60,815 nt of DNA. It comes from Nitrososphaeraceae archaeon (lineage in GTDB: Archaea; Thermoproteota; Nitrososphaeria; Nitrososphaerales; Nitrososphaeraceae). How positions within the stretch are numbered: position 1 is the stretch's first letter; each line of letters opens with the position of its first letter. The translations under genes were made by a program, and so were the position numbers. This document shows, one piece after another, positions 1 through 35,675 of the stretch. Below the pieces are notes generated by a model. The model was given only the letters and a program-made list of their open reading frames with translations. It had not been told where the DNA came from and did no database searches. The stretch covers positions 1-60,815 of the forward strand of contig JAJPHM010000061.1 in NCBI GenBank assembly GCA_021325295.1. The letters are read 5' to 3'.

Positions 1-59
1 ACAAGTACAGTCCATACCTTACTATAGCTGGGTTTGTCCTGGTTCTCATGGCAATGAAC

Positions 60-78
60 AGCTAGGACAATCCTAGCT
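60..78 (-). terminator. Hairpin closing the DISARM-like cluster
   Basis: An 8-bp perfect inverted repeat (AGCTAGGA / TCCTAGCT) with a 3-nt loop lies just after the stop codon at 86 of the leftward Ntn-hydrolase gene. It is placed as an end-of-operon hairpin. There is no strong T-tract after it on the minus strand, so its role as terminator is inferred from position only. Confidence 0.35.
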
Positions 79-85
79 ATACGAA

Positions 86-460
86 TTACCTTAAGTTAAC
101 AGAGCCGCTCTTTTTGAGGAAATGTTTTCCAATGAGTATCTTAAATTTAAAATGCTCCTTATGATCATCAGACATATAGATTCGATATATTCTGTTAAAA
201 TTTCCTACGCTATGGGATAATGTTTCTACGATGTTATAGGGATTGTATTTATCAGTTGCATCTCTTGTCACTATATAATCCCCAACAACATATTTTCTAA
301 ATACATCGAACGACCAAACACGTCCCGTATAAGCAACAACAATGTGCTCAAAATCTCCATGAATTTTCTGAACATATCTTGGTCTTCTACCTCCACTCAA
401 CATTCTATCTGCAATTATCACTATTCCATCTTTACAATGTGCGCCGATAATACAAGTCAA
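86..460 (-). CDS. Short proteasome-like Ntn hydrolase
   Basis: This 124-residue protein begins MTCIIGAHCKDGIVIIADR, which matches the N-terminus of proteasome beta/HslV-type Ntn hydrolases. After Met removal Thr1 would be the nucleophile; Asp17 falls exactly at the conserved place and Lys31 near the Lys33 position. Family members usually have about 180-220 residues, so this one lacks roughly the last third of the fold. It is either a reduced form or a truncated gene; no obvious continuation appears in the other frames before the window ends. It starts 44 nt after the HEPN-like gene in the same direction and is the last gene of the 5932-86 cluster. The family call is reasonably sure; activity is uncertain. 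Confidence 0.6.
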   Translation of the reverse strand: MTCIIGAHCKDGIVIIADRMLSGGRRPRYVQKIHGDFEHIVVAYTGRVWSFDVFRKYVVGDYIVTRDATDKYNPYNIVETLSHSVGNFNRIYRIYMSDDHKEHFKFKILIGKHFLKKSGSVNLR

Positions 461-504
461 TACATGTCATTTTGTACTGGAATATCTAAGCTTTGGCTAG
501 CTTT

Positions 505-963
505 TCATCTTCCCTGAGTTGAGAGCTTAGTCAAAAGTAGTAGCTCTTCAAGCATAGGATGCATTAAAGATGCGGGAGCCCAATAGGTTTTCTGACCGTC
601 ATATAGAGATCCGGCATACCTAAGAGAATGATCCTTATGACGTGCATGTAGACCATTTATTACATTTATTGTAGTCAGTGTTATCGTTACTCCCTTTTTC
701 TGTAATGCTTCCAAAAGTGTGTTTAGATCATGTCGATAATCATATTTCTTTAAGTCGTTTTCTGTAAACCCTCTTTTTAGTAGGGCAGATTTAAGAAATA
801 ACTCCGCAGCATGGGAAACTAGAAAATAAAATGGAATTGCCGTTAGTTTCGCCGGAGAGCCGTCATCTCGTTTTTCCAATGTTGCCTCTAATTTTTTTGC
901 ACTCTCCCAAAAGGCAACGCCCATCAGGCGGTAGCAAGATGCTAGCGCATTGTTGTCTATCAT
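505..963 (-). CDS. HEPN-like domain protein
   Basis: A 152-residue, mostly helical protein. Residues about 44-85 have the pattern of HEPN-type proteins: a hydrophobic helix with HAAELFLKSALLKRG followed by a YRHDLNTLLEAL helix. Such proteins occur as RNases, nucleotidyltransferase partners or abortive-infection factors. The canonical catalytic RX4-6H motif is not clear; the R-H pairs in YRHDL and HARHKDH are candidates. The start is 41 nt downstream of the PLD-like gene and 44 nt upstream of the Ntn hydrolase, so it probably belongs to the same transcript. The specific function is not recognised. Confidence 0.5.
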   Translation of the reverse strand: MIDNNALASCYRLMGVAFWESAKKLEATLEKRDDGSPAKLTAIPFYFLVSHAAELFLKSALLKRGFTENDLKKYDYRHDLNTLLEALQKKGVTITLTTINVINGLHARHKDHSLRYAGSLYDGQKTYWAPASLMHPMLEELLLLTKLSTQGR

Positions 964-1004
964 GCCCCGGCTTTCATTTCCGAACGTATCATGCTCGACT
1001 ATGT

Positions 1005-1754
1005 CTATTCCCCTATTTTCCTAGAATTCTCAAAAACGGTGGTAAAGAATGAAGCCAGCTCGGCACCGATGCGCTCATCAGAGACCAAGACGCCCAACTC
1101 TACATTGTAATACAGCGAACGTTCATTGATGTTTGCCGACATTATCATAGCCGATTTTCTATCGACACAGACAAATTTGGCGTGGACTTGATAGAGCTGG
1201 ACTCCCTTAGAGCGCTCCTTCAGATATCTGACTTCGATGTTTGGATTAAGTCTAACCAGTCTGGTGAAAAAGGGCGAGCTCGCATTCTCTGTTAGCATTC
1301 GGATCCTAACATTGCGATCGATCCTTTCGACTATTGGAACTACTAATTCATCGATAAATGGTGAGCACACTAGCGCCTCGGTTCTTGCGGAACCAAGCAA
1401 ATCGATTAGTGCCTCTGCTATTGAAGATGATGGGAAAGAACTGGTTTGTTTCTTTAAGCTTGGTGGAGCCACAAAAAGTAGCTGGAAGGTCGGTGGAGTA
1501 TGGGCTGGACTAGGATGACTCTCAGTGTATGAAAGATAAGCTCGGCCTGCTTTAGTTAGAGTCCATTTTGCATCGATGACAGGATGTCGGGAATCACCTT
1601 CATGACGCTCAACGAAACCCATCGAATTCATCCACAATAGTGCTGACAAGATTGGCTCATTGATCTTGGCGCGGGTCTTAATTTCATCGACTGTAAGCCC
1701 AGACATTTCTGATAGTTCCTTTAGAATTTGGCTGAGCGCGTACGTTGCAACCAA
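1005..1754 (-). CDS. Phospholipase-D-like protein, DrmC-like
   Basis: This 249-residue protein has an N-terminal winged-helix-like region (about 1-75) and a C-terminal PLD-superfamily domain. The single HKD motif is intact: H191, K193, D198, then S206 and N208, with a conserved Glu at 219 in the NVELGVLVS segment. Single-HKD proteins work as dimers and are often nucleases. The length and domain order match DrmC of DISARM systems. It starts 3 nt after the DUF1998 gene ends, so the two are almost certainly co-transcribed. Other HKD nucleases attached to helicase systems are the alternative. The PLD fold is sure; the DISARM assignment rests on context. Confidence 0.7.
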   Translation of the reverse strand: MVATYALSQILKELSEMSGLTVDEIKTRAKINEPILSALLWMNSMGFVERHEGDSRHPVIDAKWTLTKAGRAYLSYTESHPSPAHTPPTFQLLFVAPPSLKKQTSSFPSSSIAEALIDLLGSARTEALVCSPFIDELVVPIVERIDRNVRIRMLTENASSPFFTRLVRLNPNIEVRYLKERSKGVQLYQVHAKFVCVDRKSAMIMSANINERSLYYNVELGVLVSDERIGAELASFFTTVFENSRKIGE

Positions 1755-1757
1755 GCT

Positions 1758-3233
1758 CTAAAATCCCCACGAGATATCTTGAGCATCTAGGCGCAAGAGT
1801 GGACCTAGCGTGAATCTCGAAAGAGCCTCGTTCCACTCTTGACAACCTCTTGTAGCTATGCAGTATTTGCATCTGTCATCGCAGGTGCACGAGCCAATGT
1901 TTTCTCTCAGTTTTGTGAAAAATTCGAGGATGATCGGTTCCTTCTTCTGCTCGTCAAATCTAGATAATTCTATACAAGCTCCCAATCCTCCAGGTGCTTC
2001 CTCGTACACAAGCACGGCATCATTTATCATGTCGTAAATGTATGAAAAACTATCAAGCGAAACGCCAGAGACCGCCGGCAGTCTAGTAAGGAAAGCGTGC
2101 GCCAGACTGTGAAGAACAAGTTTGTGGAGATCCTTGTCCGTGGCTGTTACGCCTTGGTATTTCTGGTAATACGAAGGATGCTCCTTGAAGACTTCTTTAA
2201 GATATGAGCTTACAGTCTCGAAATAGTGAGATTTGAGTCTGAGATACAAAGCGCCAGTCTTAATGTCTCTTCCGAACTTCTTGGCTTTGATAGTTCTAGT
2301 GATATTTGCGCCGTACAAATAACCCAATACGATCTCTTTGATTCTTGCCTCTGGGGCAAACAGGAATTCCTCCACAAAGGAAGTGTCAAAGCAAGGCGAT
2401 GATTCCAATAGACTTGCAAGATTCGAATTGTTTAGTTTCAAAGAGTTCCTACTGTAGGTTGACACTAGAAACGGCTGGGAAAGATTTTCACTCGCATTGG
2501 TAAGTGAGTAGTTAGCGCTGTACAGTCTAAATTCGTTCTTGCAGTTGCTGCATACAATAGTAGAACTCTCCATGAGTCTTGCTGGATTTTTCGAGTAGTA
2601 TGAATTTAGAACCCCCTTGTTACACTTCGGGCATGCAGCTGACGTGTGATTTTTCCACGCATCCCAGAGGCTACTCAGATTAGCACCGGATATCCACACA
2701 GGTAATGGAGTAGTAGGGCTTTTCTCAGTCTCCACTTTTAACACCCAGATTGGTGTAATCTGCAGAGTCCGTCCATCGTTTGGGCATTTGAAAACATTGT
2801 ACTCCCGCTTTCGTTGGACCTCTTCCTCAAAGAAGAGTCTCTTGCATTTCGAACACCAGAACTGACAAAGGTCGTCTGCAAAACGTACCTCGGCCCTAGT
2901 CATTTTGTGGCAGGCAAACTGATTTGCTATCAGATCTCGTTTAACCTCTGGATCGTCTATGTTATTTAGCAACCCTAGGAGTTCTCTTAGCTCCTCGACT
3001 TCTAGCAACTTAGCCAGTTCCGGATTGTCTCCGTAAATACGATCAAAATTATCGACTAGGATACGAAGTTCGTCCTCATTGAACATCAGAGTAGAACCTG
3101 CGTCAATCGCCTTTGTCTTGTATATTGCGCTCTTGTACTGGTAAAGACCTGTTTGGAATGTCTTTTCATCCATTGGCAGCATGAACTTCCTGATTGCGTC
3201 ATTGCTATCTTCATCAGTTCTAAAATATACCAA
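1758..3233 (-). CDS. DUF1998 protein, DrmB-like
   Basis: A 491-residue protein with a C-terminal DUF1998 domain. The helix LHSLAHAFLTRLPAVSGV, the strand with YEEAPGGLGAC and the terminal cysteine cluster (C449, C451, C455, C458 and C464 approximately) are typical. CxxC pairs in the first half (around 127-155 and 200-235) suggest further zinc sites. DUF1998 proteins act with DEAD/DEAH helicases, either fused (YprA/MrfA, a DNA repair helicase) or as a separate gene (DrmB in DISARM). Here the start codon follows the helicase stop codon with no gap, so the pair should be translated together. Probably a DNA- or nucleic-acid-handling subunit of a helicase complex. Confidence 0.7.
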   Translation of the reverse strand: MVYFRTDEDSNDAIRKFMLPMDEKTFQTGLYQYKSAIYKTKAIDAGSTLMFNEDELRILVDNFDRIYGDNPELAKLLEVEELRELLGLLNNIDDPEVKRDLIANQFACHKMTRAEVRFADDLCQFWCSKCKRLFFEEEVQRKREYNVFKCPNDGRTLQITPIWVLKVETEKSPTTPLPVWISGANLSSLWDAWKNHTSAACPKCNKGVLNSYYSKNPARLMESSTIVCSNCKNEFRLYSANYSLTNASENLSQPFLVSTYSRNSLKLNNSNLASLLESSPCFDTSFVEEFLFAPEARIKEIVLGYLYGANITRTIKAKKFGRDIKTGALYLRLKSHYFETVSSYLKEVFKEHPSYYQKYQGVTATDKDLHKLVLHSLAHAFLTRLPAVSGVSLDSFSYIYDMINDAVLVYEEAPGGLGACIELSRFDEQKKEPIILEFFTKLRENIGSCTCDDRCKYCIATRGCQEWNEALSRFTLGPLLRLDAQDISWGF

Positions 3234-5705
3234 TTAACCACCCTTTAATTTCTTCAAAGTGTCAATATCAGAAGAAGTCAAGCCTGCTGAACGGAGTGCT
3301 TTGTAACGGCCTTTTGCCATTCCAGTCGAGCGCGTAAATCTAGACTTGTAGTCATATGGTTCTTCAAACTCAACCAGAACCGTTTCATCGACCTTTCTCA
3401 TATCAAATAGATTGAACTTCTTTGTAATGAATTCTTGTAACTGGGACTCCGGGACTCCTTGAGCTATACGAAGGAGGTCCGCCGCCCTTCTTATGTTATT
3501 GGCATCCCACATCTCTTCTAGGTATTGCTGTATCAGGGGATTCGAAATACTCTTCTTTAACATCAATTCCTTGAAGAGCAAAGAACTGTCTTCGCCTAGG
3601 ACTGTGGAAATGTCTAGGACAGAGCACAACATATGCTTGTGTTTAAGGACTTCATTTCCTACTGGAAAAGGCGGATATTCAACGAAGGAAGTTGGATCCG
3701 CTGCCAGTTTTATCGCATTCCTAAAATAGGAAAGATCGATTGGATCGTCCGGGTTCAGGAATACAAATACGATCGCATCATTATTCCGTCCCGCCCTTCC
3801 AATACGTTGGAGATAATTATTGAAAGTGTAAGGAGCGCCGTAGAGGGCAAGACCATCTAACCCTTTGAAGTCAACTCCTACCTCTAGAGTACTTGTTGCT
3901 ACAAGAACTCTAATCTTTCCAGCATTGAACTTTTCTTCCGTCTCAGCTCTTTCTTGTCGCGTGTAGTTAGAACTGTGCCCATCAATATTATCCACCAATG
4001 ACTCAGTTCTAGGATCCGCTGATAGGCGTTGTCTCGTTAGATTCAGTAGCATACTGCTCAATGTTAAGGAGTTCACGAATGTTAGTATCCTAAGTTTCGA
4101 AGTTGCGAGCATCTGATATAGTGAATATGAAACTGAGTCAATCATTCTGTAGGCTCGTGGAGATGCAAATACGACAACTTTTGAATAGGTTCTGCTGAAG
4201 TCGTAATCTTCCTCCGTCGTCTGGATGACGCTTACGTCTCGGTCAAAGAAATCTCTTCCGAATCCTATTGGGTTCTTGACGGTTGCTGATGTCGCTATGA
4301 ACTGAATCTTTGGGCGTGTATTTCTCCTGTGGTAATGCTCGATTGCATGTTCTAATCTCCGGAGAAGGTGACCAACATTACCCCCGAATAAACTGCTGAA
4401 CAAGTGCAATTCGTCCAACAGAACGACATCGGGTGGGGTATTGCTCTTCACTAAAACTGTAGACGATTTACCTCCGCAGTTATAGCAAGAAGTATTTCCG
4501 TCATCGAGTATCAATCTGCAATTTTGACAATGCGTTATTTCAGTCTCTGCGCCAAGAAATACATGTCTCCTTCTATCGGCCATCAGAATTCTGTTCATAA
4601 TATCAGCCGTACAAACGAGGATATCTGGCGGATGAAGGGTTGTATTGTATCGATCTGCTATTATGTAAGGATATTCGCTTCCACATTTCGAGCAGCGAAG
4701 TACACCTCTTTCATTAGAGACAAGCCTAATCTCCGCAGGCGTGACATTGCCCTTTTCTAGTTCACCCTCATGTCTGACACACCGCAGCGGAAGTGGAATC
4801 TTCAGCGATATCCGTTCTTCAATATCCCCGTGGTAGACGCCCACAGTAAGTTTGTCGCTACCATCCTTATTGATCCAGTCAGCGAACTCGAAAATTCGTT
4901 GAAGCTGATCGCTTGCTAGCGCTTTCGTTGGATAGAATAGAATTGCCTTTACCCCATTCAGACCGGCCTTCTTCATATCTAGGATCCGAGTAAGTATTGG
5001 AATAGCGAACGCTTCTGTTTTGCCTGCGGCAGTCCTTGCAATTACAATGCAAGGGGCTCTATTGCCATGCATTTGTGTAAAGATTTCGGTAATCGCCCTA
5101 TTCTGGAAATCATATAGCCGTCCGCCGTTGGCTTCAATTTTCGATTCGACAAACTTTTGAACTGATTGATCGATTTGTTTAGCAATACATGACCTTATCC
5201 GCTCTGACAATTCCTTGATGATGGTTTTTCCGGCCTTCGGTCTCGGGAGATTTGTCGGAGCAATGTAATAATCTTGGAATAATATGGAATTCTTGTCATT
5301 CTGTTCGAGTGGCAAGAGACCATACCCTTTTACTTCGCTCGGCTTACACTGAATGGGTCCATCCGTCCGCTCGCTGATCGATAAGTCCAACAAACTACCA
5401 AATTCAAAGGTTCGCTGTCCTTCCTTGATTCTATCGGTTTCAGTCTCGTTTGCTAGCTTGAAGAGCAAGCGGTTTACGTTAGAATTGCGTTTTACGTCCT
5501 TAACCATACGGAGCTTGATGGGACGTGGCTCAGAACCACCTATGATTGGGACTTCTATCGTTGCTTCTCTCCCTGAAAAGGTTTGCTCGGTTGATTCATC
5601 TGCAATTTTTATACTTAATTGGATTCCGGAAGAACCGAAGATACTCCTCACGTTCACTTCGATATCCACGAAGTTTGTCAAAGAGCTCCTAGCCTTGAAA
5701 ACCAT
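3234..5705 (-). CDS. DEAD/DEAH helicase, DrmA/YprA-like
   Basis: An 823-residue superfamily 2 helicase. Visible motifs: motif I ARTAAGKT at 223-230, motif Ia around 258-265 (YPTKALASDQ), motif II DELH at 431-434, motif III SAT at 473-475, and motif VI QRIGRAGR near 660. Between motifs Ia and II lie two zinc-ribbon-like clusters, C338/C341 and C393/C396/C407/C410. The protein lacks a DUF1998 tail, which is instead the next gene. The neighbourhood (helicase, DUF1998, PLD) is that of DrmA-B-C; a split MrfA-type repair helicase is the alternative. About 220 residues precede the helicase core and are not assigned. Confidence 0.75.
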   Translation of the reverse strand: MVFKARSSLTNFVDIEVNVRSIFGSSGIQLSIKIADESTEQTFSGREATIEVPIIGGSEPRPIKLRMVKDVKRNSNVNRLLFKLANETETDRIKEGQRTFEFGSLLDLSISERTDGPIQCKPSEVKGYGLLPLEQNDKNSILFQDYYIAPTNLPRPKAGKTIIKELSERIRSCIAKQIDQSVQKFVESKIEANGGRLYDFQNRAITEIFTQMHGNRAPCIVIARTAAGKTEAFAIPILTRILDMKKAGLNGVKAILFYPTKALASDQLQRIFEFADWINKDGSDKLTVGVYHGDIEERISLKIPLPLRCVRHEGELEKGNVTPAEIRLVSNERGVLRCSKCGSEYPYIIADRYNTTLHPPDILVCTADIMNRILMADRRRHVFLGAETEITHCQNCRLILDDGNTSCYNCGGKSSTVLVKSNTPPDVVLLDELHLFSSLFGGNVGHLLRRLEHAIEHYHRRNTRPKIQFIATSATVKNPIGFGRDFFDRDVSVIQTTEEDYDFSRTYSKVVVFASPRAYRMIDSVSYSLYQMLATSKLRILTFVNSLTLSSMLLNLTRQRLSADPRTESLVDNIDGHSSNYTRQERAETEEKFNAGKIRVLVATSTLEVGVDFKGLDGLALYGAPYTFNNYLQRIGRAGRNNDAIVFVFLNPDDPIDLSYFRNAIKLAADPTSFVEYPPFPVGNEVLKHKHMLCSVLDISTVLGEDSSLLFKELMLKKSISNPLIQQYLEEMWDANNIRRAADLLRIAQGVPESQLQEFITKKFNLFDMRKVDETVLVEFEEPYDYKSRFTRSTGMAKGRYKALRSAGLTSSDIDTLKKLKGG

Positions 5706-5728
5706 TTTAGTTGTGTAAGTCTGGTTCT

Positions 5729-5932
5729 CTATGTTTTTGTCTTCCAGAATGTATCCGACCTCGTTTCGTCCGCCAACCTCCCAGAGTTGGGTTCATCTTG
5801 CTGCTTTCGCGGTGGTAATACCCTGAAATGAGGGCGAGGTTCAAGCTGAATGGCAGAAAGGTCGTCCATTATGGAAGTAGCCAGTTTGCTGACGTCTACC
5901 TGCGCGCCGCTCGCAGAGGCCAATCTCCCCAT
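5729..5932 (-). CDS. Small ORF leading the helicase cluster
   Basis: A 67-residue ORF lies 23 nt upstream of the helicase gene in the same direction. An A/T-rich element resembling a TATA box sits about 25 nt before its ATG, so it would be the first, leaderless gene of the cluster. The sequence is hydrophilic (MGRLASASGAQVDVSKLATS at the start, a basic/acidic tail) and matches nothing I recognise. It could also be untranslated leader of the helicase mRNA. Confidence 0.35.
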   Translation of the reverse strand: MGRLASASGAQVDVSKLATSIMDDLSAIQLEPRPHFRVLPPRKQQDEPNSGRLADETRSDTFWKTKT

Positions 5933-5949
5933 TATACGAGTCTGGATAC

Positions 5950-5963
5950 TAATAAAGGATCAG
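5950..5963 (-). promoter_or_regulatory. Putative TATA box of the DISARM-like cluster
   Basis: On the minus strand the sequence GATCCTTTATTAG is centred about 25 nt upstream of the ATG at 5932. This is the normal archaeal TATA spacing for a leaderless message. It is the only plausible promoter directly before the cluster. Confidence 0.4.
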
Positions 5964-22482: not shown

Positions 22483-22556
22483 GCCCTAGTAGCTCAGCCT
22501 GGCAGAGCGAAGGTTTCGTAAACCTTAGGTCATGGGTCCGAATCCCATCTAGGGCT
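22483..22556 (+). tRNA. tRNA-Thr (anticodon CGT)
   Basis: A 74-nt tRNA folds well: acceptor stem GCCCTAG/CTAGGGC, D-arm GCTC...GAGC, anticodon stem AAGGT/ACCTT with loop TTCGTAA (anticodon CGT, reading ACG), and T-arm ATGGG/CCCAT with loop TCCGAAT. No intron; CCA is not encoded. Its 3' 43 nt are the attachment core of the element at 22557-36633, and the tRNA is kept intact by the copy carried on the element. Confidence 0.96.
22514..22556 (+). repeat. attL: 43-bp core in tRNA-Thr
   Basis: The 3' part of tRNA-Thr from the anticodon loop to the discriminator base is repeated exactly at 36591-36633 (43 of 43 bases). This is the standard attachment site type of SSV-like integrases. The intN frame is read on the opposite strand through this core. 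Confidence 0.93.
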
Positions 22557-22959
22557 CTCATATTATTATCTATCTCATGGTTTACTCTCCCTTCGCTCTG
22601 ACTAGGCTGAGCTATTGTGGTGTGACAATTAGCTGTCACATTGTGACTACTGGCTGTCACAGCAGAGTTTTGTACAAGTGGCAATTCTAGCTCAAAGAAT
22701 GTCTTGATTTTCCTGTTTACCCTGCTCTTTATCTGTCTGGCATAGTCTGGACTTACCTGTATTTTACCCAACAAGAAATCCAATTCTCCCTGTGTTAGGA
22801 GTGCTGGCTTGATATCGTCAACCATAGTTTACTTATGGTAAAAGCAAGCTATAAAGCTGCCTCTTCACTTGCCCAATTCAAATTATGACGAGTCAAAGGG
22901 AGTAATATTGAAATTATTAATATGATGATTCATGTTAGAAACATCCCATGAGAATGAAA

Positions 22960-23937
22960 TTAAATAAATTTTCTCATACTACGAACTATATCATTTACAT
23001 GAAGTTCAAGTCTTTGAAGTTGTTCTTTTGATATATTCCTGCTGTGAGCTATAGCATTCCGTATTGGGTCGAGCTCTTTCAATTTTGCTGAAATTAATTC
23101 TTCATCTATGAATACCTCTTTGAAAGTATTCTTCCAGTTGTCTGCACGTTTTATGATTTTAATATAGTCATTAAACTCCACATATTGTAACAAATCTGTG
23201 TCTAGAGCACTATCACCCTTTAGGGAATTAACTGTCCCTGTCCACAGAGATGGTTTTTCATTCCTTTGCTTCTTTAGCTCCGCTCCTTGCCTAATGTCAC
23301 TTGGTATGCACTCCATCCACCAGTTCTTTGAAATCTTGTAAAGACGTGTTTGTATCAGGAGCCGCATTTGTGTCTCTAGTTTGACCAATAAGCTATATGC
23401 TGTCTTCTGCCTATCTTCATCTTTTTCCTTGAGCTCTGCTAGAAACTGTGGGATGTCACTATTATAGATAAGCTGTTCAGCCTGAATAGAGAGTAAAATA
23501 TAATTTAATCTTCGCAGTCTTGCTGGTAGAGTTGAAAAGTTATGAACTGATGCTAATCTCTTAATCAGCAGATAACTATTACCAGCTATTGTCAAGTCTT
23601 TTCTTTTGACAGAAATGGAATTGAGAAAGCTGATTAAGTCACTCATAATGCTGTTGAATCTATTTTCATAACCATTTAGCTTTGCTTGATATTGAAGTTT
23701 TTCTTGTTCCTTGAGATACTTTAGAGTTGACTTTCTTGCGGCACCATTTAGCCTGACATTTGTCCCAAGCAAATCTCTTGCAATATCCTGAATAACCTCG
23801 CCTGCACCATACGCAATCAGGTTCTTTCCCAATTCTTGGTTGATATTTTGTCTTGGTTTTGCAGCACTGAATAGTTGTAACAACGAGGTAGATTGGTCAA
23901 TATACTGTTGCAATCTAACCTTGATTTCGATGTTCAT
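22960..23937 (-). CDS. Swt1-like HEPN protein
   Basis: A 325-residue helical protein. The C-terminus has the segment LDPIRNAIAHSRNIS with an RX4H motif (R293, H298), the catalytic signature of HEPN ribonucleases, in the form seen in Swt1-like HEPN domains. A conserved-looking WWMECIPSDIRQGAEL precedes it. The first 200 residues are unassigned helices. It is inside the element between intN and the secreted-protein genes; a defence or dormancy role through RNA cleavage is inferred. Confidence 0.6.
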   Translation of the reverse strand: MNIEIKVRLQQYIDQSTSLLQLFSAAKPRQNINQELGKNLIAYGAGEVIQDIARDLLGTNVRLNGAARKSTLKYLKEQEKLQYQAKLNGYENRFNSIMSDLISFLNSISVKRKDLTIAGNSYLLIKRLASVHNFSTLPARLRRLNYILLSIQAEQLIYNSDIPQFLAELKEKDEDRQKTAYSLLVKLETQMRLLIQTRLYKISKNWWMECIPSDIRQGAELKKQRNEKPSLWTGTVNSLKGDSALDTDLLQYVEFNDYIKIIKRADNWKNTFKEVFIDEELISAKLKELDPIRNAIAHSRNISKEQLQRLELHVNDIVRSMRKFI

Positions 23938-24260
23938 TAGTATGGCAGAATATCAAAAGACTGGGGTGACTAAAATAATTATGGGAAGCTATGAATTCCT
24001 AATTCTTTGATTCTTTTGCCTGCGTAAACGCCCTTCCAGCCAATAATGTTGGCTAGACTAATTACTCCTTGATACTAGATGTGGACTTCATCCGAAGCCA
24101 AAAGTAAAATCCAACTCCAAATATTGTGCTTGGGAGAAGGCAGGAAATGCAAAACCCAGAGATTTAGTGAATATAAGTATAATGTTGATTATAATATAAT
24201 TTACACTGAAGTGTTGGATGTGCTAATAAAAAAGGTTTGAAATTCTCCAATACTAGATTC

Positions 24261-25412
24261 CTACTTTGGAATTGCATTCTTCACCTGTTCTATCCAGGAA
24301 ACTAAATCATGAGTAGGCTTAGCTACAAAGGCCATTATGGTCGCGCTCACCATAACATCAATCACTTGAGTCAAAGTACTGGTCTCATGCGGCAGAAGAA
24401 GTCCCAGTAATCCTAGTTGAAAGTATGCTATAAGTGGAATGGCAATGAGTAGAGCAATGACAAATGACCAAGCATATGTGAATAGTTTCACCCTGTTTTG
24501 CAGTCTTGAAATTTTAAGCTGTATATTGCCCGTCTTAAGTCCAGACTCTGATAGCTCAAGCGGGTCAGTTTCCTTTTGCTCATTCTTCTTTGAATCACCA
24601 CCGCCATTTCTGCTCTGCGTTGGAGTGCCAATCGAAGTTACCATTATTGTCTTTTGAGCGATTGTTGGAGGCTGAGTGTGAGATTGTGTCTCATGTCCAT
24701 TCTGTATTTGGCTGTTTGAACTTGAACCTTTCACTCGGTCCAAATCGGATTGATATGCTGCTATAACCGCATCGTTATTGACAAGGTTCCATCCTAGAGT
24801 CTTATACTTAAATCTCGAGCTTCCATTTCCGTCAGTCGCCCATTTGAGCAGCTCTACAATTCTTTCTATTGCTGCTCCAGGTACAGCATAGACTAGAAAT
24901 AAAATCCATACTGCATTCCAATTTACGTCACGTAGAATTTCAGGGGGAGCATTGTTTGCAGATACTTGGAAAGATGTAGTTGCAAATAGTTCAGTTTGAT
25001 TTTGGGGAGAGAAATTTTTTGTAGCATTGATTTGTGTAAAGATAGTAAAGTTGCCGCTAGCTTTTGCATCACTTGGTATGTTTACATCGAATTGGGATAG
25101 CATAGTACTGTTTGGTGGAATAGTCTGACCTATGATGGTGGGGTCGAATTGAATATTTGAGGGATTGCTGCTCCTCCAAACATTAGGCAGAAAAATTGTA
25201 ACGTTCTTGATTGTAACATTGTTAGTGGGTTCATTATTTGTTACAGTTAATGTCATCTTGAAAGTATGGCCAGTCAGAATAGAATTAGTATCTGGTGATA
25301 AACTCGAAGTAATGGAATTCTGCTCATCAGCCTTGGCTGAAAAAAAGGGAATTGATAAAAAGATTATCACAAGTAAGCATAACAGTGACAGGTGTCCCAT
25401 TTTTTGTAGCAA
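24261..25412 (-). CDS. Secreted/membrane protein with three membrane segments
   Basis: A 383-residue protein with a signal peptide (residues 1-28, LLVIIFLSIPFFSAKA), an extracellular beta-rich domain with many N-glycosylation sites (about 35-150), a membrane segment near 165-180, a cytoplasmic linker rich in Gln/Ser, and two segments near 315-335 and 350-366. The ectodomain resembles CARDB/COG1361-type folds. It could be a surface or entry-exclusion protein of the element. No specific family recognised. Confidence 0.6.
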   Translation of the reverse strand: MLQKMGHLSLLCLLVIIFLSIPFFSAKADEQNSITSSLSPDTNSILTGHTFKMTLTVTNNEPTNNVTIKNVTIFLPNVWRSSNPSNIQFDPTIIGQTIPPNSTMLSQFDVNIPSDAKASGNFTIFTQINATKNFSPQNQTELFATTSFQVSANNAPPEILRDVNWNAVWILFLVYAVPGAAIERIVELLKWATDGNGSSRFKYKTLGWNLVNNDAVIAAYQSDLDRVKGSSSNSQIQNGHETQSHTQPPTIAQKTIMVTSIGTPTQSRNGGGDSKKNEQKETDPLELSESGLKTGNIQLKISRLQNRVKLFTYAWSFVIALLIAIPLIAYFQLGLLGLLLPHETSTLTQVIDVMVSATIMAFVAKPTHDLVSWIEQVKNAIPK

Positions 25413-25589
25413 ACTACGACACTTTCATGAAGAGGAATTATATTAATAATATGAAAATACACCGAGATTCCATTAGGAGATGCGTCTATTACATATTAGC
25501 TCCCTATGCTATTAAGTGACTTAACGATAGTATCAGAAAGTCAAATGAGGGCTACCAATGAAGTTTGACTTTGGGAAAATGAACTAATA

Positions 25590-25793
25590 TCACTCTTTTT
25601 CCCTTCGCTTACATCTCCATTCCGAATGTTCATCAAGGAGCTGCCTCGCTTCAGGAGTAAGTTTGCTGCTAGGCGCTCCCCATTGTAATGCCATAATCAA
25701 AGTTCTGGCTCCCATCAGACCATTTCTATCTCCATTGACTGAGCATAGGTCAGGCCAAGGGTTAGGGACTTTTCTTGATGGGTAGTCTGTCAT
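25590..25793 (-). CDS. Small unknown protein
   Basis: A 67-residue hydrophilic ORF within the element: it has Trp-containing segments (NPWPDL, HSEWRCKRREKE) and a Lys/Arg/Glu-rich tail. No promoter or partner is evident and the family is unknown. Gaps on both sides (25413-25589, 25794-25912) show nothing else. Confidence 0.35.
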   Translation of the reverse strand: MTDYPSRKVPNPWPDLCSVNGDRNGLMGARTLIMALQWGAPSSKLTPEARQLLDEHSEWRCKRREKE

Positions 25794-25912
25794 ATCTATA
25801 GTGAATAAATCGTTGAAATTATGGGTTGCTGGACAGAAATTTAGTTAGACTAAATAAATTAGAGACCTGACAACCAACCTGCTTCAACTCTTTATTTTGG
25901 ATTTTCAGTACT

Positions 25913-26775
25913 TTAGATTGGTGGTTTGCTTGAGAAGGATTTTCTTCTAGACAGAAAGACTATGGCTCCAAATACACTTGCCATCAATAGATATACTCCA
26001 CTGGAAATTCAGGAGTTGTTGTGGGTTGTGAGTTTGTAGGTGCGGTCTGTATTGCTGGATTGATTGTAGATTGCGCTGCTGGCAAACTTGGGTCAATCAT
26101 GGCATATTGTTCGCTCTGCACGTTGACCGAATATGAAGCAATCTGTGAGCCAACTTTGTTATCTAATATAACCAATTCAAAAGGTGCTGTTTGGTCCGCA
26201 CTCAATTGTTCTGGTTGAGTGTATGCAAATGAAGTAGCAACTATCTTGCCTGATTTGTCAAAGAATGCACCAGCTACCTTGACATAGTTTGCTGTTTTAT
26301 CAGCTTGGTTTGTAACTTCGCCTGCAAGGTGATAGTAGCCAATACTATCCACATAGCTATAACCAATATTGAGCTTTAACATTGCTTGCTCATCGGATGT
26401 AGTTTGTGAGCTTGTAGCCAGACTGTATTTTGAAACTACGGCAGATTGCTGCGCATCTAACAAGACTATATCAAATGGTGATTTTTCTCCACTTCATAGA
26501 GTTCCAATATCAGTATAAGTAAAGCTTGTCGAAACCACTTTTCCAGCTGAATCATAAAAGGTAGCTATTACTTGGACATAGGTGACACTTGTCGGTGAAT
26601 TATTCTGCACTTGTCCTATCACATGAAAGTAGCCAACATCATCCGTATATGCTGATGAGCTAAGTATAGAAATTTGATTATCTGACTGTGCATAGACGCT
26701 GCTAGTCATGACAGTAGTGAAAGCACTCAAAGTTAACACTGCTAATGCCAGTTTGAGGAATTTCTTTTGTGCCAT
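25913..26775 (-). pseudogene. Broken tandem FxLYD-like surface protein
   Basis: Read from the ATG at 26775, this gene codes for a signal peptide (ending ASSVYA-like, MTSSVYAQS) and two tandem beta repeats with the pattern GYFHVIGQVQNNSPTSVTYV. A TGA at 26494-26496 interrupts the first repeat in frame; the second repeat has Ser at that place, so TCA to TGA is the likely change. A net loss of one base near 26003 shifts the frame just after PEFP; in the other frame a membrane anchor follows (GVYLLMASVFGAIVFLSRRK) and ends at 25913. Two independent lesions make this a pseudogene. The two fragments lie at 26494-26775 and 25984-26463. Confidence 0.75.
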
Positions 26776-26840
26776 AAACTAACGTTTACATCTTCAGAAA
26801 ATCTTCTAGGTAAATATTCCCGTTTTTGGTTTGCCCGTAA

Positions 26841-27035
26841 AATCAAAAGCCAGCAACCGAAGCTACGAAGGAAAGCAACTTTGAGCTGTATGTTATCAAC
26901 CAGCTAGGAAAGAGGTTTGAGAAATTGACCATCGACAATGAAAAGCACTGTTTAAATTTCGGGCAAAGGTGCTTGCTATTGCTTGCATGCAGTTCAAGGC
27001 TTAGTAGGGCCAACCCCAGCAGATATAGGAATTAA
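26841..27035 (+). pseudogene. Possible coding relic in the element
   Basis: A plus-strand frame stays open for 64 codons with no good start. The first half looks protein-like (ESNFELYVINQLGKRFEKL) and the end is low quality. Likely remains of a lost gene between the pseudogene and the 264-residue gene. Low certainty. Confidence 0.2.
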
Positions 27036-27830
27036 TTATTGGAGGTTTGGATACAGGGCTTCATCAGCTTCATCATAGTAGTAGAGCGGTTTACCATTTA
27101 TCCACTGAGATGGAGTTGGTTTGGCTACAGCATGTTCTTTTGGCCTGCTTAACTGGTCAAGGGAATCTACGACATGAATCTTGTTGGTTCTCTTAAACTT
27201 CGATGTGCCTTCAATTCTTTCCAAGTATCCCTCTATCACCAAATATTCCGTAACTGCTTTTATTGGCTGTCTGTTGCGAACCAGACATCTTGGGAGTTTA
27301 TGCGCTAGCTCAGATTTGGCAAATACTCTACCTTGGAATATTCTATCGATTTCTTCAAGGTATTTGGAAACCAACGAATTGGCATCAGCCAGTCTTCCTA
27401 TTGCTATTGAACTCCTAGTTCCATCTGCATTAAAAATAAAGCATCCCACAAAGTCCTTGTCCTTCTTCTTATGACAAAGCCAATATTCTGATACTGCTTT
27501 GTGGATTTCTTTTTCACCATAGAACTTGTGAAATGGTTCTGCCACGTAATCACGGGGTATCAACTCTCCTCTTGGAGTATTTGCATTCTGGATTTTGAAG
27601 TCTGGTTCTACTATTCGAAGCGCTTCCTCTTCCATAATTTTTGGAAGGACAACAATGCACTTCTCGCCAACGTACTTGAGTGTAACGTATCGCAACTGGA
27701 TGAGACGCAGCAAAGCATCATAAGCTTGGCTGAGCTTATCGTTAGGGAAACTTTCGACTAGCTTATCTTTTTCCATCTCGTTTCCATTCTTTAGCAGTAT
27801 TCTAAGATGAGCCTTTTCGAACCTATCCAA
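27036..27830 (-). CDS. Unknown protein with winged-helix-like ends
   Basis: A 264-residue protein. Its N-terminus (about 1-60) looks like a winged helix (LVESFPNDKLSQAYDALLRL then LRYVTLKYVGEKC), and residues 180-225 form a second such unit (ELAHKLPRCLVRNRQPIKAV, LVIEGYLERIEG). It is divergent from the HTH gene at 27958 with TATA-like sequences for both directions between them. Possibly a transcription or replication control protein of the element; not recognised. Confidence 0.5.
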   Translation of the reverse strand: MDRFEKAHLRILLKNGNEMEKDKLVESFPNDKLSQAYDALLRLIQLRYVTLKYVGEKCIVVLPKIMEEEALRIVEPDFKIQNANTPRGELIPRDYVAEPFHKFYGEKEIHKAVSEYWLCHKKKDKDFVGCFIFNADGTRSSIAIGRLADANSLVSKYLEEIDRIFQGRVFAKSELAHKLPRCLVRNRQPIKAVTEYLVIEGYLERIEGTSKFKRTNKIHVVDSLDQLSRPKEHAVAKPTPSQWINGKPLYYYDEADEALYPNLQ

Positions 27831-27890
27831 TTACCTTTCAAAGGGTAGCCTTATATATAAAGTGTATCTTTATGTCTGTAACAGCGTAGT

Positions 27891-27913
27891 GGATGTCTGC
27901 TCAAATGACATCC
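27891..27913. promoter_or_regulatory. Inverted repeat between divergent element genes
   Basis: GGATGTC and GACATCC form 7-bp arms around a 9-nt spacer. It lies between the TATA-like element of the leftward gene (TTATATATAA at 27851) and that of the rightward regulator (CTTATATAG at about 27922). The position suits an operator for the winged-helix protein at 27958. Confidence 0.4.
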
Positions 27914-27957
27914 ATGTCACACTTATATAGTGCTTCTTATCTAGAAGTATAGATACT

Positions 27958-28368
27958 ATGTCCAGAAATGGTTCAGCTGAATATGAAGGAGTTCTATCAA
28001 AGTTATTTGAAAGCCCCTCCAGAGCAAAGATATTGGATTTTTTCCTAGACCACAAGGAATTTGACTATCCTGCATCAGAAATTGCAGAAAAAGCTGGACT
28101 ATCCTTTAGGCACGTATTAAGAGAGCTTCCGAAACTAGAGAAAATGGGATTAATAATAAGAAGCAGAAAAGTCGGGAAGGCTAGCATGTTCCGTGTAGAT
28201 ACAAATCTTGCAGCAATCACGTTACTTGAAAAGATGTGCATGGAGCTGGCAAGAATGCCTTCATTCAACAATCTAAACTATAAAGTTGAAGTTCAGATTC
28301 CCTTAGATGAAGTAGAAAATGAACATGGAGAAAACAAATTGAATGTTAGTGAATTAGTTAGTGATTAG
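27958..28368 (+). CDS. Winged-helix transcription regulator
   Basis: A 136-residue protein with an ArsR-like winged helix at about 10-80 (SRAKILDFFLDHKEF, ASEIAEKAGLSFRHVLRELP, KMGLIIRSRKVGKASMF). The C-terminus is acidic. The sequence is close in style to the winged helix of the chromosomal MNT protein at 18412. It ends 19 nt from the convergent end of hsdM and may control the restriction-modification genes or the divergent gene. Confidence 0.7.
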   Translation: MSRNGSAEYEGVLSKLFESPSRAKILDFFLDHKEFDYPASEIAEKAGLSFRHVLRELPKLEKMGLIIRSRKVGKASMFRVDTNLAAITLLEKMCMELARMPSFNNLNYKVEVQIPLDEVENEHGENKLNVSELVSD

Positions 28369-28387
28369 TTTTCGATTATTCTTTGCG

Positions 28388-29860
28388 TTAATCTAACTTA
28401 ATCTCTTTCAGCGTTTCTATAATCTGGTTCTCTAGCTCTAGTATCTTTTTCTTTATCAATTCTGGCTTTTCATACTGCACTTCTTCGTAGACAATCTCAC
28501 GATATCTTGATATGCTGAGGTCATAGTTGTTGTCTTTGACCTCCTTCAAGGGAACAAAGAAGTATTTCTTCTTCCTGTCTGTTTGCTTTTCCTTATGTCT
28601 GTTTTTGAATTTTTCAATTATGTCAGGAATGTCATTTTGCTCAATCTCGACTCTCTTGTCATCTAGGCTATAGCCATCGGCTTCCATGTCATAGAACCAT
28701 ACCTCCTTTGTTGGTTCTCCTTTTGTAAAGAACAGGACAGCAGTAGATACTCCAGCGTATGGTTTGAAGACACCTGAAGGCATCGAGACAACGGCGTCTA
28801 GCCTGCATCTTTCTAGCAACATTTCCCTAATCTTTTTGTGAGCATTGGAGTTGCCAAAGAGTACGCCATCAGGAACAATTACAGCACATCTTCCACCGTT
28901 TGTTAGCAGGTTGAACATAAGCTCCAGAAAGAGAAGCTCTGTCTTCTTTGTACTAGTCCTAAAGTTCTCTCCAATGTCAGACTCATCAATGCTTCCCTTG
29001 AATGGCGGATTAGCCAACACCACATCGTAGCTATTGGATTCTTTGTATCTCTTTGATAGAGTGTTTACCTGCTCTATGTTTGGATTTGAAATGCCATGCA
29101 TCATCAGGTTCATTAGCGAAATTCTGACCATTGTCTGGTCAAAGTCATAGCCAAATAGGCTCTCTTCCCTTAGCTGCTTCCACTGCTTGTCATTCATCTT
29201 GTCTCCTGCATAGTTGCCTTCCTTGACAAGTTCTTTTGAGGTGTTGCTTTTTAGAATATATTCATAGGCAGATACCAAGAAGCCTGCTGTCCCGCAAGCT
29301 GGGTCGCAAATCCTATCTCCAAACTTAGGCTCCAGAATCTCTATCATCATCTTGATTATGTGCCTTGGTGTCCTGAACTGACCATTCTTGCCTGCTGTTT
29401 GCAACTGGCTTAGAAGGTACTCATAGATGTCGCCCTGGGTGTCCCTGTTTCTTTCCTTGATGTGCATATCGTTGATTATCTTGACTGCTTCTGCAAGCAA
29501 TGAAGGCGTTGGAATTGTAAAGCTGGCATCTTTCATGTATTTGCTATAAATTGATTTTTCTCTACCATTTAGCTTTCGCAAGAATGGAAATACTTTATCG
29601 CGTACATGCTCTAGCATCTTTTCAGCAGGCATCTCTGTCCATCTTGACCATTTGCAATCTTCATTTCCTTTGAAAATTGAAACATACTTGCTACCTATCA
29701 ACCTAGAATTCTGTTCAGCCTTGACATCCTCATCTTCAAGTCGTTTCATGAAGATAAGGTAAGACATTTGCTCTATTGCTTGCAATGGATTTGATATTCC
29801 ACCGCTCCAGAATTTGTCCCAGAGCAGGTTTATCTTTGATTTGAGCTCTGCATCTAGCAT
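28388..29860 (-). CDS. hsdM: Type I restriction-modification methyltransferase
   Basis: A 490-residue N6-adenine methyltransferase. The HsdM N-terminal helical domain (about 5-125) precedes motif I DPACGTAGFL at 186-195 and motif IV NPPF at 284-287. Forms M2S with HsdS to methylate the recognition site. Its start overlaps the end of hsdS by 7 bases and it is the last gene of hsdR-hsdS-hsdM. Confidence 0.95.
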   Translation of the reverse strand: MLDAELKSKINLLWDKFWSGGISNPLQAIEQMSYLIFMKRLEDEDVKAEQNSRLIGSKYVSIFKGNEDCKWSRWTEMPAEKMLEHVRDKVFPFLRKLNGREKSIYSKYMKDASFTIPTPSLLAEAVKIINDMHIKERNRDTQGDIYEYLLSQLQTAGKNGQFRTPRHIIKMMIEILEPKFGDRICDPACGTAGFLVSAYEYILKSNTSKELVKEGNYAGDKMNDKQWKQLREESLFGYDFDQTMVRISLMNLMMHGISNPNIEQVNTLSKRYKESNSYDVVLANPPFKGSIDESDIGENFRTSTKKTELLFLELMFNLLTNGGRCAVIVPDGVLFGNSNAHKKIREMLLERCRLDAVVSMPSGVFKPYAGVSTAVLFFTKGEPTKEVWFYDMEADGYSLDDKRVEIEQNDIPDIIEKFKNRHKEKQTDRKKKYFFVPLKEVKDNNYDLSISRYREIVYEEVQYEKPELIKKKILELENQIIETLKEIKLD

Positions 29861-31008
29861 ACCAGTTCACCATTGAATGCTCTTTGAATTGAACTATCGA
29901 AGAAATTATCGATATGCTTCCCTAAGTCTCTTTGACTGTCTCTTATCTCTTCAACACGATTTGCTATATCCACAAATTTATTCATCATTGATTTATCTGG
30001 ATAGGGTATAAGTAAATTTGCAATCGATTCTCGACTTAAATTTATGAAAGTACTGCCCTGACCTATATTCTGAAAGTAATCGTATTTTGTTCTCAAAAAT
30101 TCAAAAATAAACCTATTCGATAAATCTGTTTTGCTGTTTATTGCTGCAAGACCTCGACCAATGCAGTATTCTTTTTCCGCCCAATTCATCCTACCAGCTG
30201 TTGCCCCTCTGACACAAAACAAAATAGAACCCTTTGGTGCTATTTTCATAGGTGAGGTAGTCCATTGTTTTTCTGTCGGATGTTTAATCCCAAATTCAGT
30301 AGGTCCATTAAGAAGTGGCATTCCTTTTGCTAAATTGTTATAACTTTCACCATTTGGAGACTGACCCATTAGAATGTCGGCCACATCTCCGAGCTTCGCG
30401 TTTTTGGATTGTCGAGTGCTCTTATTTGAACTACTAATAATTTCGGAAAAGGCTGCCTTTAGCAATTCATTTGTCAATTCATCAGCTTTCTTTCTGAGTT
30501 CTTTTGCTTGCTCTGCTTTTTCTAGAATTAATGCTATCTTTTGCTGTTGTTCTCTTGGCGGGATTGGAACTGAAAATTTCTTAATTAATTTAATCCCCAA
30601 ATCAGGCACGCTAATGCTTTGTACTCCCTTGTGTGCTTGACGGAGAAGAGTAGGGGATTTCAAGTAATAGTAAAGATATTTCGGCTCTATCTGGTCTCTA
30701 TATGGTTTAATGAGAACCAAACTGTGTAGAGGGAGGAATTTTCCAGGAGGCGCCCACCTAGTTTCACCTATTGTGCCTATTCTTGAAAATAAAATATCTC
30801 CATCCTCGGGGTTACATCGCTCACTCTCATTTTTGAAATCCTCTTCTGATATTTTTTTGCACGAAGATAGGTCAATTCCAGATTCTGTGAAATTCGCAGT
30901 AGAAACACATGGTATGCCATCGTTTTGATATTTAGGGGTATAGTGTGTCCTATCGATAACAAAAGCTACTTCTTCCAAAGATTTCATAGTTACAGCTTCG
31001 GTTTGCAT
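29854..31008 (-). CDS. hsdS: Type I restriction-modification specificity subunit
   Basis: A 384-residue protein with two target-recognition domains (about 5-150 and 205-345), each ending in a conserved coiled helix: IPPREQQQKIALILEKAEQA and the C-terminal FVDIANRVEEIRDSQRD. It determines the bipartite DNA target. The slightly short second half is within the family's range. It starts 16 nt after hsdR and overlaps hsdM. Confidence 0.9.
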   Translation of the reverse strand: MQTEAVTMKSLEEVAFVIDRTHYTPKYQNDGIPCVSTANFTESGIDLSSCKKISEEDFKNESERCNPEDGDILFSRIGTIGETRWAPPGKFLPLHSLVLIKPYRDQIEPKYLYYYLKSPTLLRQAHKGVQSISVPDLGIKLIKKFSVPIPPREQQQKIALILEKAEQAKELRKKADELTNELLKAAFSEIISSSNKSTRQSKNAKLGDVADILMGQSPNGESYNNLAKGMPLLNGPTEFGIKHPTEKQWTTSPMKIAPKGSILFCVRGATAGRMNWAEKEYCIGRGLAAINSKTDLSNRFIFEFLRTKYDYFQNIGQGSTFINLSRESIANLLIPYPDKSMMNKFVDIANRVEEIRDSQRDLGKHIDNFFDSSIQRAFNGELVC

Positions 31009-31024
31009 TTCTTTTCCTCGTTAA

Positions 31025-33763: not shown

Positions 33764-33859
33764 GGAACTGCCCTTCAGCTATTACTTTGGTATTAGAATA
33801 CCATTTTAAAAAATTACTGTTTGGGAGTACATCAAACCTAAAGCACTGCCTTTAGCTTT

Positions 33860-34189
33860 CTAGGTATTAGGGTTGATAACTATTCCTGCGCCTTTTCTGT
33901 AAAGTTCAGAAGAGGTCTGGTTTTGCCTAGGAGGCAGATGTGCATATCTGCCTCCTAGCTTATCCAGATACCTGTTTACTGACCGTCTGGAGACTTTTAG
34001 AATCCTGCTTATCTCGCTAATGCTGATTCCATGTTGTCTGAGTTCTAATGCCTTTAGCCTTCTATCTTCAGCACCAGCAAAGAAGGCTCTAATTCGCTCA
34101 CTTCTTCGTCTTATGTGCCACATTATCTCTGGGTCTGGTTCATCGTCACCCAAGCGCTTACCCAGTGTAAGAATCTCTTCGCAGGACAC
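33860..34189 (-). CDS. Helix-turn-helix protein
   Basis: A 109-residue protein with a resolvase/homeodomain-like HTH: LKALELRQHGISISEISRIL and VSRRSVNRYLDKL (about 46-78). The N-terminus is charged. It is upstream of hsdR on the same strand, 97 nt away, and may regulate the restriction genes or assist excision. Confidence 0.6.
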   Translation of the reverse strand: MSCEEILTLGKRLGDDEPDPEIMWHIRRRSERIRAFFAGAEDRRLKALELRQHGISISEISRILKVSRRSVNRYLDKLGGRYAHLPPRQNQTSSELYRKGAGIVINPNT

Positions 34190-34354
34190 TTGTCTTTCAC
34201 CTATTCATAGTTGATTGCAACCCCTGCTGCCTGCTTTTCGTTTCTGATAGATTAGTCTCAAAAGTCTCATATGCACATGTGCCACTTGCTGGTCTTGTAT
34301 GGCTATTGTGTCCTTGCTTTCTTGCTTTACCAAGTGTAAGGTTGGTCTCTTCGC

Positions 34355-35329
34355 TCAATTTGCCATCACCCTATTCTGAAGCTCCAATTGGAGTTGGCTC
34401 ACTTTTTGCTCCAGTTGGTCTACCCTGTTTTGCACTTTACTGACTGTAAACAAACCTTCGATAACCTCTGTAACTGGAAGCTTTGGAGAGCGAGCTTCCT
34501 CAACCCTGCAAACGGTCTCATTGCCAAGTGATTTGATGTAAATCCTAAAGATTCTGTCAATATGCTTCCACTGAATTCTCAGGCCACTGACATGCATGTC
34601 ATGTGAAACTGGTATGTCCTTGTTGATATCCATAGAAAGCCATAGCCAGTTGTTGAGTGGAGGGACTATCCGCTCAGATGGGTCATTTAGAATAGCAATC
34701 AACTCCTGCCTAATCTGCCCTAGAAATGAATTGAGCTGGCTTCTATCGTCATCTGTCATTATCCTGTGTGGCTTATTTGATGTCTGGGCAAACACCATGA
34801 TTTTTCCATGAGGATAAAATGTGAACCTGACCATGTATCCACTTATTCTGCAATCCCGAGTTTTGCCACCGTTTGAAGGGAGTGGTGGAGTATTTAGTGA
34901 AGAATAGTAACCAGCATACAGCGAAGGGTCATTAACATCAAAAGCCAGCTCAAGCCTGTGAATATGGATGGGAGCTGAGGGAAGCAATGGTAAGACATAG
35001 CTCTGAAGTGATTGGTCAATTAATGCATCTAATGGGTATAGATTAGAAGCAACCCCTGACACCCGATTGTATTCCCTTTTTGCTAGTTCCTGCTCTATGT
35101 CAGCCTGTATCTCTGACAGATAGTAAGTCTGGGGCTTTGTCCTTTCCCTTCTGGTATACAAAAACCCTGAATGTTTGGCCTTTCTTAGTGCATTTTGAGC
35201 ATGTTTTTTCGTAATGTTGAGTATGGTCAGGTCAGTTATGGTAATACCCCTTGCAGCTCCTTTTTTCGCTGCGATATCTCGGAGGAGCTTTTTGGTAACT
35301 CTGGTGTATACATTGGTCAAAGCATTCAC
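34355..35329 (-). CDS. Unknown 324-residue protein, replication-initiator-like context
   Basis: Residues 1-70 look like a winged helix (DLTILNITKKHAQNALRKAK then SGFLYTRRER). The middle has HRLELAFDVND, an arrangement like the strand seen in some replication initiators, but no His-hydrophobe-His or Tyr motif was identified. The C-terminus (about 290-324) is a short coiled coil (VDQLEQKVSQLQLELQ). It is next to the palindromic region at 35470-35701 and the integrase, where element replication genes are often found. The role is inference only. Confidence 0.4.
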   Translation of the reverse strand: MNALTNVYTRVTKKLLRDIAAKKGAARGITITDLTILNITKKHAQNALRKAKHSGFLYTRRERTKPQTYYLSEIQADIEQELAKREYNRVSGVASNLYPLDALIDQSLQSYVLPLLPSAPIHIHRLELAFDVNDPSLYAGYYSSLNTPPLPSNGGKTRDCRISGYMVRFTFYPHGKIMVFAQTSNKPHRIMTDDDRSQLNSFLGQIRQELIAILNDPSERIVPPLNNWLWLSMDINKDIPVSHDMHVSGLRIQWKHIDRIFRIYIKSLGNETVCRVEEARSPKLPVTEVIEGLFTVSKVQNRVDQLEQKVSQLQLELQNRVMAN

Positions 35330-35469
35330 TTTTTTTCACCCATGATATTTAAGCGAGATGAAATGGTGCAAATTTTCGGCACCGTGCATCTGTTGCCCTC
35401 CCTTTTACTATGTGTAAAGGGTCTGTCTGCTGTAAGTATTCGCAACAAAAATTTAGAATCGTTTAACAT

Positions 35470-35491
35470 TCTGCTGCAAAATTGCAGCAGA
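35470..35491. repeat. Palindrome copy 1
   Basis: TCTGCTGCAA and TTGCAGCAGA arms with an AA spacer (10-bp arms). It repeats the core of the palindrome at 35676-35701, 208 bp away. Both are in the 448-nt non-coding gap 35330-35777 between the 324-residue gene and intC. The gap also has two TTTAAG-type TATA-like sites after similar ATGATAT sequences. Confidence 0.75.
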
Positions 35492-35675
35492 CTTGTGTTC
35501 TTATGCTCTGTAGATTTCAGTCGAATCAGAAGTATCACATTGATTCACTTTCATTTTAAATCATATTAAATGTTGGATAGTTTGCACATTCATCACTTTG
35601 CGGATTTTACTCTTGTTTGCCTATGTCATCAAAAAACACCATGATATGACATTACTATATTTAAGTGAAAAGACA

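Follow-up and report, generated by a model that had tools for sequence, protein, structure and literature searches.

The solved class 1 DISARM complex, DrmAB of Serratia (7s9v/7s9w), pairs a helicase with a separately encoded DUF1998 protein and also tells DNA apart by its single-stranded 5' end, DrmC being reported as non-essential (PMC9142583). A separate DUF1998 gene is consistent in DISARM only (Bell et al., PMC12458937), and an archaeal provirus with DrmA and DrmC only has been reported (PMC11705971). Closest to the locus described here are the archaeal DISARM loci (class 2-like) of Pyrobaculum oguniense, archaeon S141 and Zestosphaera, which share with it the DrmA-DrmB-DrmC gene order, the split DUF1998 module, a phospholipase D (PLD) nuclease and zinc modules in the RecA1 domain of the helicase. 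The locus lies at positions 86-5932 of a 60,815-nt stretch (hereafter the window; contig JAJPHM010000061.1, C69 in our numbering, of assembly GCA_021325295.1, 99.7% complete) from a Nitrososphaeraceae archaeon of the ammonia-oxidiser type, a placement with which genome kinship (its phylum group includes Pyrobaculum oguniense) and gene content agree. Based on the PADLOC ranking, the helicase tree, the gene order, the RecA1 zinc inserts, the intact catalytic motifs, the base composition of the neighbouring genes and the archaeal loci that lack these neighbours, we consider it (with a probability of about 0.68) to be a divergent archaeal core of the DISARM branch (DrmA-DrmB-DrmC) that has a short helicase, lacks a methylase, and carries an HEPN-like and a proteasome-like N-terminal nucleophile (Ntn) hydrolase gene as variable cargo. 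With such a core, the DISARM branch would take in a shortened DrmA that has no methylase linked to it, in an archaeal family whose other sampled genomes lack it. The row comprises six minus-strand open reading frames (ORFs) within 86-5932, separated by gaps of 23, 0, 3, 41 and 44 nt, just as an earlier sequence-only reading of the window had described it:

5950..5956, minus strand: TATA-box-like TTTATTA, putative operon promoter (sequence reading alone), ~20 nt ahead of the ATG of the next feature
5729..5932, minus strand: 67-aa ORF, possible first gene; no family match in the profile libraries searched (Pfam, PADLOC, NCBIfam)
3234..5705, minus strand: DrmA-like superfamily 2 (SF2) helicase with zinc-binding inserts in RecA1, 823 aa (PADLOC, tree)
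1758..3233, minus strand: DrmB-like DUF1998/MZB protein, 491 aa (PADLOC, Pfam, fold match of a low-confidence model)
1005..1754, minus strand: DrmC-like single-HKD phospholipase D nuclease, 249 aa (NCBIfam, PADLOC, Pfam)
505..963, minus strand: HEPN-fold-like small protein, 152 aa (AlphaFold model and Foldseek, weak matches)
107..460, minus strand: 5' half of a proteasome-like Ntn hydrolase gene, TTG start (Pfam Proteasome)
107..114: target-site duplication of 8 bp, GCTCTTTT, with its counterpart at 85841-85848, where contig C35 ends
1..106: end part of an IS6/IS240-like insertion sequence (IS) with a 16-bp terminal inverted repeat, repeated at other contig ends

The helicase ranks DrmA first among the PADLOC families (3.9e-59, with a second DrmA profile at 1.1e-40) and DpdJ next (8e-33), while the control, an archaeal YprA-type helicase of ~744 aa in fused form, ranks BrxH/DruE first and DrmA twelfth (3.5e-24). 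Its SF2 motifs are complete (AGKT 227, DELH 431, SAT 473, QRIGRAGR 633), and its RecA1 domain carries three CxxC pairs (at 338, 393 and 407) sited between motifs I and II. A tree was built of 31 helicases, with bacterial DISARM (DrmA) and canonical Dpd helicases left out (it took the place of an earlier one that had lost most DISARM rows to a motif filter). The window helicase falls there with three helicases of archaeal DISARM trios (SH-aLRT 97), and stands apart from a separate group of 11 fused YprA-type helicases (support 99), from the large proteins of ~2100 aa and from the haloarchaeal ones of ~1840 aa. The YprA helicases of ARMADA, BRIGADE and Druantia belong to the same superfamily, and are large fused proteins that fall in separate clades in these trees (the labels of the large tree proteins were not tested one by one). 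On these grounds the helicase is a predicted member of the DISARM branch (DrmA).

The neighbouring DUF1998 protein matches PADLOC DrmB (2.3e-10) and Pfam MZB (3.8e-5), contains a C4 cluster (C451/455/458/464), and is encoded by a gene of its own that adjoins the helicase gene. The best solved match of its model (built from five sequences) is the DrmB of DrmAB (7s9v_B, E 1.3e-6), followed by MrfA; as the model is of low confidence (pLDDT 44), we count this fold match as supporting only. Furthermore, the PLD nuclease encoded behind it matches DISARM_DrmC_I of NCBIfam (3.7e-17), DrmC of PADLOC (7e-14) and PLDc_2 of Pfam (1e-15), has one HxKx4D motif (H191-D198), and possesses an N-terminal region alignable with those of other archaeal DrmC proteins. 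Codon use in the trio is background-like. The sequence-only reading had seen a DISARM core in the zinc-inserted helicase, the DUF1998 gene and the HKD gene, and the profiles (which favour DISARM over YprA-type families), the tree and the gene order bear it out. We would accordingly designate genes 2-4 a putative divergent archaeal DISARM-type DrmA-DrmB-DrmC core rather than a full DISARM system, since the test for a methylase linked to it was negative.

Several observations weigh against this interpretation. The branch of the window helicase is long (in a tree without bacterial DISARM or canonical Dpd helicases), the helicase shares just 27-30% identity with the closest known DrmA, and its part N-terminal to RecA1 is ~200 residues shorter than that of its archaeal relatives. 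Moreover, NCBIfam scores the helicase far under its DrmA cut-off, does not call DrmB for the DUF1998 protein, and places the DrmC-like protein under NCBI's curated cut-off. Finally, the HEPN-like and Ntn genes are co-directional with the trio and separated by short gaps, which is compatible with one transcript. The differences from described systems are likewise substantial: the window helicase is ~500 aa shorter than Serratia DrmA, and the locus has neither methylases nor the accessory proteins DrmD or DrmE (its neighbouring genes match no PADLOC family). In comparison with the archaeal DISARM loci, the window DrmA measures 823 aa against 1095-1144 aa, no C5 methylase adjoins the trio, and the HEPN-like and Ntn genes stand in place of a ~389-aa gene. 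Dpd provides the second-best helicase family, and the zinc insert in RecA1 is shared with DpdJ, which, unlike the window helicase/DUF1998 pair, is not split. A Dpd origin was considered for queC and queD, situated 3-5 kb away, and rejected, as NCBIfam identifies them as archaeosine tRNA genes; the TGT of the window is TgtA (7.6e-143; DpdA score 21 against a cut-off of 200), and no DpdA was found in the window (a genome-wide DpdA search was not made).

Relatives of the helicase proved to be rare. The 60 nearest genomes yielded no DrmA relative, only two more turned up among ~400 genomes from the phylum, and a scan of 84,980 species genomes (with two usable peptide patterns only, so that closer relatives may have been missed) returned best identities of 27-30% in archaeon S141, Zestosphaera and Pyrobaculum oguniense. 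A short Thermoprotei contig additionally carries a partial DrmA followed by DrmB and DrmC. Directly behind DrmC, Zestosphaera and S141 encode a ~389-aa protein (a similar-looking partial frame occurs in the Thermoprotei contig) and Pyrobaculum an unrelated 328-aa one; as these genes and the HEPN/Ntn pair differ by locus, the gene behind DrmC varies between lineages. The ~389-aa proteins (L070 12381-13550 and L073 11073-12242, with a partial frame in L069) are 31% identical to each other and belong to no Pfam family, the L073 copy also matching no PADLOC family, and could possibly be an uncharacterised archaeal DISARM component. Single-protein scans of viral contigs with DrmA, DrmB and the HEPN-like protein (the Ntn alignment being too diverse for this purpose) and plasmid searches with DrmB, the HEPN-like protein and Ntn found no relatives. 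No syntenic empty site was recognised in five relatives, in which a phosphate-transporter pair is kept and the C35 flank is not beside it, and a comparison of C35 with the window revealed no attachment-site repeat. We consider that DrmABC was probably acquired horizontally in this lineage.

The absence of a methyltransferase gene from the row, already remarked upon in the sequence-only reading, was confirmed: no methylase adjoins the trio, and neither DrmMI nor DrmMII is present in the operon. The C5 methylase family (PF00145) is missing from the whole genome, which on the other hand holds nine strong matches to N4/N6 methylases (PF01555, E below 1e-33) plus fragments. The nearest methylase found is a type I HsdM, located at 28.4 kb in the window (22 kb from the trio) within a type I restriction-modification (R-M) system at 28388-33763, and the nearest PF01555 match lies ~70 kb into C35. 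Among the archaeal loci with full flanks, two of three (Pyrobaculum and S141) have a C5 methylase near the trio, and the Zestosphaera trio has no methylase within about 7 kb. As a side observation, the C5 methylase neighbours an HhH-GPD/endonuclease III-type gene at L073 12254-14587 (glycosylase confirmed by Pfam) and L024 3567-5493 (recognised by eye), a pair that perhaps repairs deaminated 5-methylcytosine.

Under the favoured interpretation, DrmA and DrmB would form a heterodimeric ATP-driven translocase of single-stranded DNA. Like the solved DrmAB, it would load on foreign DNA whose single-stranded ends are exposed; the engaged DNA would be cut by the DrmC-like PLD nuclease or by a different one. 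Because the operon has no methylase, self-protection must come from elsewhere, and may be provided by DNA structure and/or by unlinked methylases of the genome; strictly speaking, a working model can do without a linked one, given that DrmAB senses the single-stranded 5' end and DrmC is reportedly non-essential. If so, the locus would represent a natural minimal DrmABC, with which one may ask whether DISARM separates self from foreign by DNA structure alone. Self-marking in trans by the unlinked N4/N6 or type I methylases is possible, and would, in its strong form, imply full DISARM function. This explanation, which may overlap with the one we favour, is unlikely as it stands yet fares best among the alternatives: it draws on the PF01555 matches, the HsdM of the window, the methylase-free Zestosphaera trio and the provirus mentioned above, and runs against the usual adjoining position of DISARM methylases and against the C5 type found at two of the three archaeal loci, which this genome lacks.

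The last gene of the row is interrupted. Window bases 1-106 constitute the end of an IS6-like element, which recurs as an exact copy at four other contig ends and with 82-83% identity on contig C25, where a complete relative (G000:C25:43413-44123, ~711 bp, 16-bp terminal inverted repeats) lies between 8-bp duplications and encodes a DDE-type, IS6/IS240-type transposase frame (read by eye; the family label is our own, judged from the transposase and from how long the duplications are). The octamer GCTCTTTT starts right after the IS end in the window, and the same 8 bp recur at the end of C35 (another contig of the same assembly), where the opposite end of the element follows them; three further contig-end pairs carrying the element match alike by target-site duplication. 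The 3' half of the Ntn gene is located at C35:~85475-85848, and joining the flanks into an empty site restores one frame of ~240 aa, which scores 1.1e-9 against Pfam Proteasome (the part in the window, taken by itself, 4e-4) and begins MTCIIG.., with Thr1, Asp17 and Lys31 as in beta-type subunits (a near-Lys33 pattern). The sequence-only reading had described a short Ntn hydrolase: the proteasome-like family holds, and the short length is an artefact, because the last residues and the stop of the 124-aa ORF lie within the transposon. The gene is thus predicted to be inactivated by the IS in this genome. At its start, window 450-475 shows a near-perfect 10-bp tandem duplication (TGACATGTAT/TGACTTGTAT), by which an upstream ATG and the TTG start come to lie in different frames; it is perhaps an earlier sign of decay. 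Just past the gene on C35 lies a convergent tyrosine-recombinase-like gene (weak Phage_integrase match, 0.015). The IS6-like element also breaks the assembly at the ends of C6, C17, C31, C35, C37, C56, C60, C63 and C69, and the target-site duplications allow the pairings C6-C17, C56-C60, C63-C31 and C35-C69.

The insertion shows that an intact Ntn protein is dispensable in this strain, or else that the system is starting to decay. A decaying, non-functional DISARM remnant in a relic island (methylase lost, Ntn gene disrupted) would account for the IS, for the lack of a dedicated methylase and for the absence of trio relatives from the 60 nearest genomes. We regard it as rather improbable, since the frames of DrmA, DrmB and DrmC are open over their full length, their catalytic motifs are intact and their codon use is background-like, and the IS strikes the last gene only.

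Counting the window's own, 10 of the 61 nearest genomes have relatives of the Ntn protein, among which one from another genome proves to be a true proteasome beta subunit; they are lone genes, and the DrmABC trio does not accompany them. The aligned members retain Met-Thr at the start, and the complete ones also the pattern of Asp17 and Lys33. With the 22 novel proteasome-like Ntn families described previously (PMC8665760) the window gene shares the Pfam Proteasome match and the N-terminal Thr, and differs from them in being lone and interrupted. The surroundings of one orphan Ntn gene (L059 1076-7691) contain SIR2-like, TIR-like and integrase-like genes (by eye), which suggests a mobile or defence island.

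The HEPN-like protein belongs to no sequence family of the profile libraries and has no confident sequence relative; the phylum scan returned unconvincing matches (E 0.005 and above), the best of which sits opposite other genes. Its single-sequence AlphaFold model (pLDDT 75) finds HEPN structures best, all of them weakly and none with E below 0.4 (4nqf, prob 0.87, TM 0.51, E 0.44; HepT), and the protein carries RHKDH (Rx3H) in lieu of the canonical Rx4-6H. The HEPN label of the sequence-only reading has a weak best fold match behind it, and lacks both sequence-family support and the motif. The proportion of G and C at third codon positions is 0.45 in the trio, 0.32 in the HEPN-like gene (Fisher p 0.0016) and 0.27 in the Ntn gene (Fisher p 0.0001), the latter two values lying below every same-length block of the trio, so that base composition favours separate origins. 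Moreover, neither gene stands beside the trio in any of the four archaeal DrmABC loci read. The sequence-only reading had named the lack of both genes beside the trio in related genomes as a ground for refuting its proposal of a distinct defence system with protease-like and RNase-like effectors. This check went against the proposal, which is thus not supported, and we infer that they are variable cargo (loosely attached, possibly dispensable neighbours) and not core parts. Evidently, two eye-catching 'effector' genes can lie side by side and yet differ in origin.

A distinct system of five or six genes, recently broken by the IS, in which DrmABC would provide the sensor and the DNA effector and would be joined by an HEPN RNase and an Ntn protease, is accordingly improbable. 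In its favour speak the co-directional genes with gaps of 41 and 44 nt, the intact Thr1/Asp17 and near-Lys33 of the read-through frame, and an AbiV-HEPN gene (1.6e-8) that adjoins a proteasome-family gene (3.2e-20) in another genome of the family (L064 1131-3556), albeit convergently; these are outweighed by the trio loci without HEPN or Ntn, the orphan Ntn relatives, the differing base composition, the missing Rx4-6H and the disrupted Ntn gene. The bolder version, in which DrmABC, HEPN and the proteasome-family protease are a methylase-free immune system of this archaeal family with a transposon-broken protease arm, appears distinctly improbable. That the helicase is a DNA repair enzyme of MrfA/YprA type whose DUF1998 domain has been split is scarcely credible: the SF2 core and the DUF1998/MZB domain are shared, and among solved helicases MrfA comes closest in sequence (6znp, 2e-19), but the fused repair helicase is rejected by the profile ranking, the separate clade in the tree, the distribution over two genes with a separate DrmB, the PLD nuclease in place of MrfB and the RecA1 zinc inserts.

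Elsewhere in the window, a ~14-kb integrated element (22511-36633) is flanked by a 46-bp direct repeat (45/46) that corresponds to the 3' half of tRNA-Thr(CGT) (22483-22557). Its cargo comprises a Swt1-type HEPN protein (22960-23937) and the type I R-M system, together with an archaeal phage-type integrase (35778-36671) whose 5' end overlaps the distal repeat.

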